From: Campylobacterales bacterium
Lineage (GTDB): Bacteria > Campylobacterota > Campylobacteria > Campylobacterales > Sulfurimonadaceae
Assembly: GCA_024280035.1 (NCBI GenBank)
Contig: JAJRQV010000008.1
Span: 1-35,044 of the forward strand
Direction of reading: 5' to 3'
DNA: 35,044 nt
The notes beneath the pieces are model-generated. The model had not been told where the DNA came from. It made no database searches and saw nothing but the letters and a program-made list of their open reading frames with translations. Within the stretch, counting starts at the first letter, position 1; each line of letters begins with the position of its first letter. Of the stretch, positions 20,828 through 24,401 are shown in pieces. A program made the position numbers and the translations under genes.

Positions 20828-21499
20828 CTAAGTCGTAGGCAATCCAAACTTTTGTGTAACAAGTTCACCTTCATCATTAAAAAAGAGATAATACAAATAA
20901 TCTTTTTTTACACTAAGCCCAGCTAAGTACCGTAAGGCTAGGTTTGCTTGTAAAGAGGCAATGTGCATAACAATCGGTGCAGCAATTCCCCCTGGTTTTT
21001 TATCACTCACCTTAAACACATCAAAAGAGGAATTTTCAAAAAAACAGACCTGCCCATTGAACTCTTCAACAGAACCATATACCCAGGGTTTGTTAATCTT
21101 TTGAGCATACGAATTTATCTTAGAACGTACAGGTAAATTATCTGTAGCATCTATAATTAGATCCAGTTCAATCCCTTTTTTAGAAAAACTTTCAAAATCA
21201 CAATTATGCTCAATTGCTTTAACATAAGGGCATCTGTCTTGAATACTTTGTCTTACTACTGCTGATTTAAATTTACCCTCATCGCCTACTTTAAAAGCAA
21301 TCTGTCTATGAATATTATGTACAGAAACTTCATCAAAATCAATCAGATGAATTTCACCTATGCCTGAGGCGCCTAAGGCAAATGCCAAAGACGAACCCAA
21401 TCCACCACAACCAATAATAGCAATTTTTTTTTCTTGTAAGGAGAGTTGAATATCTTCTCCCCACAACTGTACCTGTCGATTAAAATACTCTAACATCAT
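20828..21499 (-). CDS. ThiF/MoeB/HesA-family adenylyltransferase (E1-like)
   Basis: A 223-residue E1-like enzyme, the class that adenylates the C-terminal glycine of ThiS/MoaD-type sulfur carriers in thiamine or molybdopterin synthesis. It has the nucleotide loop IIGCGGLGSSLA (~30-41), DFDEVSVHNIHRQ with the Asp and Arg of the active site, KSAVVRQ and DATDNLPVRSKIN. The two CxxC zinc pairs of many ThiF/MoeB proteins are absent, so it is a zinc-less subtype and its partner is unclear. Its first 14 codons lie in a 41-bp repeat; the other copy lies at the kinase stop (see the repeat entries). The start used here has a Shine-Dalgarno (AAGGG) supplied by the insert. Confidence 0.88.
   Translation of the reverse strand: MMLEYFNRQVQLWGEDIQLSLQEKKIAIIGCGGLGSSLAFALGASGIGEIHLIDFDEVSVHNIHRQIAFKVGDEGKFKSAVVRQSIQDRCPYVKAIEHNCDFESFSKKGIELDLIIDATDNLPVRSKINSYAQKINKPWVYGSVEEFNGQVCFFENSSFDVFKVSDKKPGGIAAPIVMHIASLQANLALRYLAGLSVKKDYLYYLFFNDEGELVTQKFGLPTT
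21459..21499. repeat. 41-bp direct repeat, copy at the ThiF-like gene start
   Basis: A 41-base stretch identical to 21625-21665. This copy encodes the first codons (MMLEYFNRQVQLWG) of the intact gene. The two copies start 166 bases apart and bracket a 125-base insert. Confidence 0.95.
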
Positions 21500-21624
21500 T
21501 CAATTCCCTTATCCTTAAAACTTTTACGATATTCAACTTATGGACTCCGACGTCGGTGCTTGCACAACGACTCTGGTTCCGACCCTAAAAATGAGAAGCA
21601 GTTCTCATTTATTAACGTGTCTCA
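21500..21624. mobile_element. 125-bp insert between direct repeats, with hairpin (possible excision scar or MITE-like element)
   Basis: Lies between the two 41-bp copies. It contains a 10-bp palindrome CCGACGTCGG (21547-21556), a GC-richer stretch (21541-21585) unlike its surroundings, and a 9-bp hairpin. It has no convincing ORF and no terminal inverted repeats, so it is not a standard insertion sequence. It splits an ancestral ATGA-type junction between the sensor kinase and the ThiF-like gene. Its mobile nature is inference. Confidence 0.4.
21589..21610. terminator. Hairpin with 9-bp perfect stem, possible terminator
   Basis: AAATGAGAA-GCAG-TTCTCATTT. On the minus strand the right arm runs into CATTTTTAGGG, a short U tract, so it could end transcripts coming from the kinase. 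The stem is AT-rich and of moderate strength. Confidence 0.4.
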
Positions 21625-21665
21625 CCCCACAACTGTACCTGTCGATTAAAATACTCTAACATCAT
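21625..21665. repeat. 41-bp direct repeat, ancestral copy at the kinase stop
   Basis: Identical to 21459-21499. The kinase TGA overlaps the ATGATG here, and AAAGGAGAG just before is a good ribosome-binding site, so this is the original start of the ThiF-like gene. Reading from here now gives only MMLEYFNRQVQLWGETR and then stops. Confidence 0.95.
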
Positions 21666-23599
21666 CTCTCTCCTTTGGGTAAACTGATTATAAAAAGCAC
21701 ACCATCTTTTACATTTTCAACCTGAATAGTTCCCTTCATACTCTTTTGGATAATCTCTTTTGACATATAAAGCCCAAGCCCTGAGCCACCCTTACCTTTT
21801 GTTGAAAAGTAGACATCAAAAATCTTATCTATCTTATCCTCATCAATACCACCTGCATTGTCTTGAATACGAATAAGCACATTATCTTCATCTTCTTTAA
21901 CTAAAAACTTAAGAATAGGTCTCTCAATCTTTTTCTCTTTAACTGCATCTTGTGTATTTTTAATCAGATTCATTAATACCTGAGTTAACTCTTGTGAAAT
22001 TCCTAATACATAATGATTTGTATCACTAAAAAGATGTGTCTTGATTTTCACCTCTTTAAGACTCCCATCACTGAGCGTGAGTGTACTTTTAATAACATCT
22101 TCAACACAAAAATTTTCTTTCTCTTTTTTGGGATTAGAAAAGTTTCTAAAATCATCTATAGTTTGCGACATATATTGCAACTGTTCATTAATTTTATCAT
22201 GTGTCTGTACCGCATCATCTTTTTGAACAGTACCCAGCTGTATTTTAAAATAAAAATTTTGATTTAATAGGGCTAAGGTATTTAAAGGTTGTCTCCATTG
22301 ATGTGCAATCTGTTCTATCATCTCACCCATAGCTGCAAAACGCGATTGTTCAATTAAAACATTATCATTTTTTCGAAGCAAGAGTAGATTCTCATCGACC
22401 TTCTCTTGGAGTAAACTATTTAAACCATTTAGTTTTTCTATATACTCATTTTCTGACTGTTTTTGTAAGTCTGCTAATGCCCAAGAGAGGAAAACCATCT
22501 CTAAGGCAGAGCCTAATTGTTGAGAATATGCTAAAAAAGCATAGCCTTCAATCCATGCAAATTTATTCATTGCAAAAAGTACAGAACCAAGTAAAAAAGC
22601 GCCCCAACCTATAAGATAAAAACGTGCAGGATAAAATTTTCTTTTATACGCAACTATGGCAGAATAAATTAAAAATAGAGGTAAAAGAACAGAAACACCC
22701 GCAATTATAAGTATCACATCACCATAAGGTTTAAAAACGGCAATACTCATAAGTATTAACATTAATATGGCAATAAAAACAAGAACAATATCTACACGTG
22801 GCGTATGTTTTGATGTATGTAAAAAATCTCTTGAAAACTGAACAATAAAAAATATCATCATTGCCATTATCGTTCCACTTCCATGTTTTACCATCCATGC
22901 CCAATTAGACCAAAAATACTGCATTCCAAGCCCGTCTAAAGAGAGTTGATAAATAATAAATGAAGAGATGAAAACTAAATAATAAAAATATTTTTTTGTA
23001 CGAGTATAAGCAAATGAGATAGCATTATAAAAGAAAATAAGAAGAAATATTCCATAATAAATTCCTGAGATTACCCAACTGTTTCGTGATTCATAAAAGA
23101 GTTTTTCAGAACTCATGATATTCATAGGTACCTGCATAGAGCTGTCTGTTTTTACACGAATATATAGTATCTGACTTTTTTGATGAGGATTAATTTGAAA
23201 AATATAGTTCCTGTCGTTCAATTCTCTTTCACTAAAGGGTCGAAGTTTTCCACTTTTATGTATTGAGATTAATTTACTGTTTTTATCGCAGGTATATAGG
23301 TCTATTTTGTCTAAAAGAGGATAAGAGATACTTAACCACCATTTATAAAGTTTGGAATCTTCTTTTGTATTAATAATAACTTTGAACCAATAAGCCGAAG
23401 AGGTAAAACCAAAACTGGCAACCTTAGTTTTTGCAATAGAAAATTTTTTTGTTTTAATATCATGAAAACTCAAGGTAGCTGTTTTATCTTCATAATAAAC
23501 CAGATTATGAAGTTCAACATCTTGATTTTTACTTGATAAAACAACTTCTGCTATAAGAAAAGTGTTAAATATAAATAAAAATAAAAAAAGAGTTCTCAT
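21662..23599 (-). CDS. 7TM sensor histidine kinase (7TMR-DISM type)
   Basis: A 645-residue membrane sensor kinase. A signal peptide (MRTLFLFLFIFNTFLIA) leads to a periplasmic 7TMR-DISMED2-like domain (~25-170; SSAYWFKVIINT, SISYPLLDKIDLY), seven membrane helices (~175-370), a coiled coil (~375-420) and a kinase core: H433 in QIAHQWRQPLNTLALL, N box NLIKNTQDAV, DNAGGI, FDVYFSTK and GSGLGLYMSKEII. The ligand is unknown; this fold often senses sugars or small acids. The frame is open to 23677, inside the preceding gene, but the ATG at 23599 starts exactly at the signal peptide and is chosen. No response regulator is adjacent, so its partner is elsewhere. Confidence 0.9.
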   Translation of the reverse strand: MRTLFLFLFIFNTFLIAEVVLSSKNQDVELHNLVYYEDKTATLSFHDIKTKKFSIAKTKVASFGFTSSAYWFKVIINTKEDSKLYKWWLSISYPLLDKIDLYTCDKNSKLISIHKSGKLRPFSERELNDRNYIFQINPHQKSQILYIRVKTDSSMQVPMNIMSSEKLFYESRNSWVISGIYYGIFLLIFFYNAISFAYTRTKKYFYYLVFISSFIIYQLSLDGLGMQYFWSNWAWMVKHGSGTIMAMMIFFIVQFSRDFLHTSKHTPRVDIVLVFIAILMLILMSIAVFKPYGDVILIIAGVSVLLPLFLIYSAIVAYKRKFYPARFYLIGWGAFLLGSVLFAMNKFAWIEGYAFLAYSQQLGSALEMVFLSWALADLQKQSENEYIEKLNGLNSLLQEKVDENLLLLRKNDNVLIEQSRFAAMGEMIEQIAHQWRQPLNTLALLNQNFYFKIQLGTVQKDDAVQTHDKINEQLQYMSQTIDDFRNFSNPKKEKENFCVEDVIKSTLTLSDGSLKEVKIKTHLFSDTNHYVLGISQELTQVLMNLIKNTQDAVKEKKIERPILKFLVKEDEDNVLIRIQDNAGGIDEDKIDKIFDVYFSTKGKGGSGLGLYMSKEIIQKSMKGTIQVENVKDGVLFIISLPKGER

Positions 23600-23606
23600 T
23601 AAAATT

Positions 23607-24401
23607 TCACTTACGTTTAGTAAGTGCCTCTTTAAATCCCCAACCTTTACGAGAAGCTTTAACTGCTTTTTTATCAAGGTCTATCATCAAAAGCTCTTCT
23701 TGGTTGCCTAATGAGTTTTCTATCTCACCATCAGGAGAAACCACCAAAGAGTCTCCATAAAAATTCCATGTAATTTTTTCATTTTCTTGATAATCACCTA
23801 TACGATTAGCTCTTAGTACATAACATGAATGCGTAAATGCTCTCATCTTAATCAGTTCACGCCACCTTTGATGTGATTCAAAGGTAGATACTGTTGGTAA
23901 TAAAACCACATCTACATTTTTGGCACTTATCTCTTTCCAAAATTCATCAAAATGAAGTTCAAAACCTGCTATAACAGCGAACTTAAACCCCTCTATACTA
24001 AAAATTAGTGGTGCTTTAAAAGGTGCAATTTCATTAGCGAAAAACTTCTCTTCAGTCCAATGTTTATAATTAATAAGAATTTGCTGATGATAATAAGTTG
24101 TTGATGTGGGTGAAAATTTTACTATCGTTTTATAAGGTTCTCTCTTTTTTACAATCACTAAAGGAGCAATAATAGTTATGCCATACTCTTTAGAAAGGGC
24201 TTTTAATGTTTTTAGATGATGGTCACTCTGCTCTTTAATCATGGCAATAGGTGTTTTTTCAAGCTCTTTAAAAAAACGGTTTAAAAGGTACTCTCCAAAA
24301 ACAACTACACGGCATCCCTTTGACTTAGCAATACGCAGATAATAATCAAACTTTGCAGCAGACATGCCTACCGAAGGGATTTGAAGTATTGCTGCTCTCA
24401 T
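23607..24401 (-). CDS. Nitrilase-fold (carbon-nitrogen hydrolase) protein lacking catalytic Cys
   Basis: A 264-residue protein of the nitrilase superfamily, recognised by MRAAILQIPS at the start, the Glu in VVFGEYLL (E37), YGITIIAPLVI, and the C-terminal WNFYGDSLVVSPDGEI. These enzymes use a Glu-Lys-Cys triad. Here the nucleophile position reads AVIAGFELHFDE (family ICYDxRFPE), so Cys is replaced by Gly146, and the YRKxH lysine position reads YHQQIL. Only Glu is plainly kept, so amidase activity is doubtful, and a binding or regulatory role is possible. The ATG at 24401 is used because it follows the xseB stop by 1 base; an upstream start would run into xseB. It ends 7 bases before the sensor kinase. 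Confidence 0.85.
   Translation of the reverse strand: MRAAILQIPSVGMSAAKFDYYLRIAKSKGCRVVVFGEYLLNRFFKELEKTPIAMIKEQSDHHLKTLKALSKEYGITIIAPLVIVKKREPYKTIVKFSPTSTTYYHQQILINYKHWTEEKFFANEIAPFKAPLIFSIEGFKFAVIAGFELHFDEFWKEISAKNVDVVLLPTVSTFESHQRWRELIKMRAFTHSCYVLRANRIGDYQENEKITWNFYGDSLVVSPDGEIENSLGNQEELLMIDLDKKAVKASRKGWGFKEALTKRK

Follow-up and report, generated by a model that had tools for sequence, protein, structure and literature searches.

The window, i.e., the whole stretch of 35,044 nucleotides analysed here, contains on its minus strand a gene for a 7TMR-DISM histidine kinase with a HATPase domain (21662..23677; 671 aa in the ORF list) and, downstream of it, an intact ThiF-family gene (PF00899; 20828..21499; 223 aa) that is conserved in relatives, both identified by domain matches. 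A repeat search of the window recovered at their junction a direct-repeat pair of 44 nt with one mismatch (21456-21499 and 21622-21665; spacing 166), the perfect part of which comprises 41 nt. The kinase-side copy (P1; 21625..21665, minus strand) corresponds to the first 41 nt of the ThiF-like CDS, while the second, identical copy (P2; 21459..21499, minus strand) forms the start of the intact ThiF-like CDS, such that kinase, P1, a 125-bp insert, P2 and the ThiF-family gene follow one another in that order on the same strand. No comparable repeat scored above 11 at 568 control positions, as against 41 in the window, and the repeat is therefore not attributable to chance. The complete 207-bp repeat-insert-repeat unit is single-copy in the draft host genome (2.51 Mb, 107 contigs).

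Reading of the sequence upheld several statements of the preliminary description at this junction: the 41-bp copies flanking 125 bp are indeed identical, the kinase ORF, which ends in ..LPKGER* at 21662, has its TGA within the first ATGATG, and the ThiF-like ORF runs from the second copy at 21499. Likewise, the short peptide attributed to the kinase-side copy is a 17-codon ORF reading MMLEYFNRQVQLWGETR* (21612..21665, minus strand), whose TAA stop is provided by the insert.

The insert itself is composite, consisting of an 83-bp dispersed structured element, here termed E (21542..21624, minus strand), and 42 bp of AT-rich, single-copy DNA, termed Q (21500..21541, minus strand; delimited by sequence comparison). 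The left edge of E, TGAGACACGTTAA.., adjoins P1, and the element is matched by the covariance model R1 at 92.1 bits, a score to be read with the fact that R1 was built partly from this same copy. The insert had been described as GC-richer than its surroundings, which holds for the whole (41%, against 35% for the window) but is due to the left 83 bp only (48%), the other 42 bp having 26%. On the basis of the family alignment, E includes a central hairpin, AAATGAGAA-CTGC-TTCTCATTT (21589..21610, minus strand; helix 2 of the family structure), and a second hairpin, GTCG(TT)GTGC-AA-GCACCGAC (21552..21571, minus strand; helix 3). E contains no ORF, and the 125-bp insert, which starts TGAGAC.. and ends ..AATTGA, has no terminal inverted repeat. 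The purine-rich AAGGATAAGGG of Q precedes the working ThiF-like start codon; Q has no second occurrence in the host genome, and no donor for it was found among the right flanks of other E copies.

A search of 100 relatives revealed the first ~84 nt of the insert to be a dispersed repeat, at times forming tandem arrays of 75-90 bp, with the remainder not recurring. The suggestion that the insert might occur elsewhere or carry cargo is hence borne out for the left 83 bp, which recur widely in relatives, but not for cargo, none of which was found in the other copies. The model R1, built from 8 copies, matches six places in the host genome, two of them weakly, with the window copy the best at 92 bits and the next at 68 bits; among the top candidates scored in relatives, E is present in 54 of the 100 genomes, with up to 42 matches in each. 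The other host copies lie at G000:C42:3622-3707, C53:18100-18182, C62:63-149 and C100:14-164, those on C42, C53 and C62 each starting with a stop codon that closes a preceding open frame ending in Met. A degenerate-pattern scan of about 85,000 public species genomes returned 66 stretches. Nearly all of them carry a Campylobacterota label (Sulfurovum, Sulfurimonas, Arcobacter and 'Helicobacteraceae' MAGs), and one carries the label Gracilibacteria; the same exact degenerate pattern had no match in IMG/VR. Neither the gathering score nor a permissive setting yielded a relevant match in Rfam, and partial-coverage searches of open-access text found no description of the family.

Members of the family are ~85 nt long, with three covarying helices and a fixed left edge, TGAGA. 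Double-sided changes are seen at all 23 base pairs of the helices across 136 distinct copies. Paired cells make up 97.6% of the alignment, as opposed to 70.5% after shuffling, with none of 500 shuffles reaching the observed value, although the former figure is inflated because the alignment is fitted to the model. When helix partners are slid by 1-3 columns, pairing falls to 32-49%, and the same compensations are visible in 8 hand-collected copies. Only 2.1% of the pairs in E are G-U, compared with 8.6% in the helices of 61 tRNAs that the same loci contain. This low share suggests that the helices of E are formed by the DNA strand rather than, or more than, by RNA. Further, the insert folds better than its shuffles as single-stranded DNA (z -2.7) and no better than them as RNA (z -0.04). 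A riboswitch or other RNA role of the insert was rejected on the strength of the RNA fold and the rarity of G-U pairs.

In terms of genomic context, E often adjoins the 3' end of a gene and provides its stop codon. In 50 of 150 copies, not all of them independent, it supplies the TGA that closes an open frame of 60 or more codons upstream, and in 13 further copies of the 150 such a frame is ended by a TAA at about +10 to +13 of E; the three nucleotides preceding E are ATG in 43 of the 150. For example, a gene ending in ..KHM has E directly behind the ATG in the host genome and in G002, G015 and G024, while its E-less relatives end ATG-TAA or ATG-TAG, with one ending ATG-TGA without E. Another recurrent site is the end of genes reading GGMPGMM*, which we take to be groEL. 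E-like elements have also inserted repeatedly at the 3' end of tRNA-Asp, in two genera of different families (L147, L148, L176, L357, L372). An in-frame E that is read through occurs within a restriction specificity gene judged by eye to be hsdS-like (L088 1307-1393, L089 2073-2159), where it would encode a linker of ~28 residues.

Going by descriptions of known repeats, E appears to be a previously undescribed family of the REP/MITE kind. MITEs and BOX-like repeats are non-autonomous, non-coding, modular and sometimes tandem, all of which applies to E; the usual target-site duplication of a MITE measures 2-10 bp, and E resembles MITEs in duplicating its target on insertion (at a tRNA-Asp locus, see below), though over a much longer stretch, and differs from them in having no terminal inverted repeats. 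The Rickettsia palindromic elements, likened here by description, are comparably palindromic and can sit in frame within genes, as E does in the hsdS-like ORF, but the phylum differs, and E is found predominantly at the ends of genes.

The closest comparison is with REP elements, which PMC3733652 presents as short, dispersed, palindromic sequences lying mostly just downstream of genes, with termini that often provide the stop codon of the upstream ORF and with some cases inside ORFs. E likewise is, in the broad sense, a short palindromic repeat with many dispersed, mostly extragenic copies, which lie near the 3' terminus of the preceding gene and provide its stop codon. REPs in the vicinity of stop codons are reported to terminate transcription or stall ribosomes (PMC12306157). 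However, it has ~85 nt and three helices as opposed to the single 20-40 bp hairpin of a REP as given in that text (PMC3733652), and a fixed left edge, TGAGA, tied to long direct repeats; target-site duplication receives no mention in the main text of PMC3733652 on GTAG- and CGTC-tagged REPs. Unlike the RAYT-mobilised GTAG REPs, E has no conserved GTAG in its consensus, and no RAYT (Y1_Tnp) gene was found flanked by its copies in the host genome or at 22 Y1_Tnp loci of relatives. The same source describes CGTC REPs without a dedicated transposase in Sulfurovum sp. NBC37-1, with a CGTC (TGTC/CCTC) tag beside an 8-9 bp stem, a loop of 4-5 and a CCA tail. On the reverse strand of many E copies, helix 3 is preceded by TCCGTC and followed by TGG; compared by description, the published CGTC stems almost invariably start with A/T pairs, whereas those of E mostly start with G-C. 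Additionally, IS1549 and IS1634 of the IS1634 family produce long, variable direct repeats of 8-514 bp, a behaviour for which no model of the mechanism had been put forward (PMC2266710). E shares these long variable duplications, but those are full transposase-bearing insertion sequences, while E has neither ORF nor terminal inverted repeat.

The duplication seen in the window recurs elsewhere in the family. At 7 of 142 copies (a count that leaves out one tandem array), representing about 6 independent events, a direct repeat has its end no more than 2 nt from the left edge of E, as against none of 568 random control positions; 134 of the 142 copies have no left-edge repeat. Besides the 41-bp repeat of the window, such repeats were detected at the tpiA-fabI junction of G001, for which G002 has a weaker orthologous copy, at L221, L147 and L141, and at the tRNA-Asp locus in both G014 and G030. 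The second copy lies 42-231 nt past the right end of E. Repeats at the right edge were absent, apart from one tandem array, and the right parts at different loci have at most an initial extension in common. At the tpiA-fabI junction, E-less relatives show an ordinary junction, and the duplication at fabI may include the leader, an alignment that is not strong alone. The tpiA-fabI spacer of the host genome and G001 (L247, L076) bears a second, unrelated inverted repeat of the CCACAGATT..AATCTGTGG type.

The key evidence for the class of mechanism comes from the tRNA-Asp locus, where sites with and without the insertion can be compared. The locus is uninterrupted in the sister genomes G061 and G083 and filled in G030, G014 and G068; the latter have therefore gained the insertion. 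What was gained there is E together with its Q, ~147 bp in all, with a ~57-bp duplication. We infer that the insert in the window arose in the same way.

On these grounds, the best explanation, to which we assign a probability of roughly two in three, is that a non-coding mobile element inserted into the ThiF-like gene and that the long duplication of its target site re-created the start of that gene. An element of the Campylobacterota family would have entered the ThiF-like gene behind codon 13. The left edge of such an element, at which the hairpin-rich 83-bp core E starts, is fixed, and the right part (Q, here 42 bp) varies by copy. The insertion would have copied the adjacent 41 bp of the target, thereby giving two gene starts, of which the right-hand one would carry the intact ThiF-like gene with a new leader and the left-hand one would be a dead 17-codon ORF ended by the element. 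This reading comes close to the integration idea of the preliminary description, and an insertion duplicating the gene start is supported by the wide recurrence of the left 83 bp in relatives and by the empty site at another, similarly built copy. Nor does the insert look like an ancient fixture of this site, the other ThiF loci examined lacking it. Counting against this explanation, most E copies have no such repeat, the repeats at tRNA loci overlap the tRNA 3' ends, no donor for Q was found, and a leader separates the kinase from the ThiF-like gene in same-genus relatives.

The last of these bears on the most serious, if clearly less probable, alternative. The preliminary description had expected relatives to share the ATGA junction, but this overlap is absent from same-genus relatives, which, where the kinase lies upstream, have non-overlapping junctions with a leader of ~20-95 nt. 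Because relatives have such a leader and Q is weakly similar to that of one of them (L004; about 1 in 500 to 1 in 1000 shuffles), Q may be the native ThiF leader and only P1+E (124 bp) inserted; E would then have entered at the kinase stop, and the downstream gene start would have been copied in at its left edge by template slippage over the hairpins. The resemblance of Q to the L004 leader lies at about equal distance from the ATG, joining the kinase end to Q restores LPKGER-TAA in frame (..GGA GAG AGA TAA), and insertion at a stop codon is typical of E. However, Q resembles the L004 leader weakly, and the leader of L023, from another genus, scores equally high; the empty site at the similarly built tRNA-Asp locus shows that E+Q, and not P1+E, was inserted there, which weakens the reading of the kinase-side copy as simply the derived one.

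Site-specific integration by a tyrosine recombinase that uses P as its attachment core is improbable, and so is a scar left behind by some larger integrative element. The 3' ends of tRNAs are favourite integrase sites, and P lies, as attachment sites do, at the end of a gene, in three loci at tRNA 3' ends; the rebuilding of the target gene also fits. Against this, an integrase uses one core, while P differs between loci in both sequence and length (~20 to 57 bp), most E copies have no repeat, and the stretches between repeats span only ~125 to 316 bp, with neither integrase nor cargo. No integrase is implicated, and an excision scar is unneeded because the element itself is still in place. Least probable of all is an assembly artefact, a thought raised by the 107-contig draft and by E-like repeats at contig ends in several draft genomes, since a 41-bp repeat is short for assembly, the E of the window has no exact repeat in the host genome, and the same layout exists in the single-contig genomes G014 and G030.

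As to how E moves, replication-linked template switching at DNA hairpins is proposed only. A nascent strand would switch during replication to an E hairpin on a DNA strand, copy E with some of its flank, and then re-anneal 21-57 nt behind its point of departure, which would leave an end that is fixed, another that varies, and a long duplication of variable length. These last properties, together with the lack of an ORF and of inverted ends, do not agree with transposition of the HUH/Y1 or the ordinary DDE MITE type, the former being expected to leave no target duplication. Y1 transposase was rejected as a partner, as the host genome has no Y1_Tnp and no E was found within 22 Y1_Tnp loci of relatives. 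A reverse transcriptase partner or SINE-like origin is not supported outside a single genus, g7: RVT_1 occurs in 9 of the 13 genomes with at least 10 E matches, but the association disappears once that genus is left out (Fisher P 0.22 to 1.0), and the host genome has no RVT_1. The idea of E as one terminus of a kb-scale autonomous element was rejected, there being no convincing distant copy of the left flank.

Every E-rich genome of g7 examined has one RVT_1 match (G060, at L399, G060:C152; G011, G028, G067, G072, G077, G082), mostly in an open frame of ~535-548 aa. The one in G060 lies behind an RdgB/HAM1-like gene, judged by eye, carries a long C-terminal portion that includes a hydrophobic stretch, and falls below the cut-offs of named retron families. 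The reverse transcriptases of G001 (L395) and G039 (L397) match the PADLOC retron RT-Toprim I-C defence models at 614-731 bits.

We tentatively consider that E could represent a new class of non-autonomous mobile DNA, namely a hairpin module that a host- or replication-linked process would copy from a DNA strand to the ends of genes, no transposase of its own being involved. Such a module would have one end fixed, capture a flank that varies, and leave a 20-60 bp target duplication by which the gene is spared. Long duplications of this kind are otherwise known in few, unexplained insertion sequences. The movement of CGTC REPs without a known transposase is posed as a question in PMC3733652, and the E loci form a ready-made series of sites with and without the insertion in which to study how short palindromic repeats move without one. 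The family is abundant across a whole bacterial order and is often positioned exactly at stop codons, being scattered through the genomes of sulfur-oxidising Campylobacterota, where it leaves unusually long duplications.
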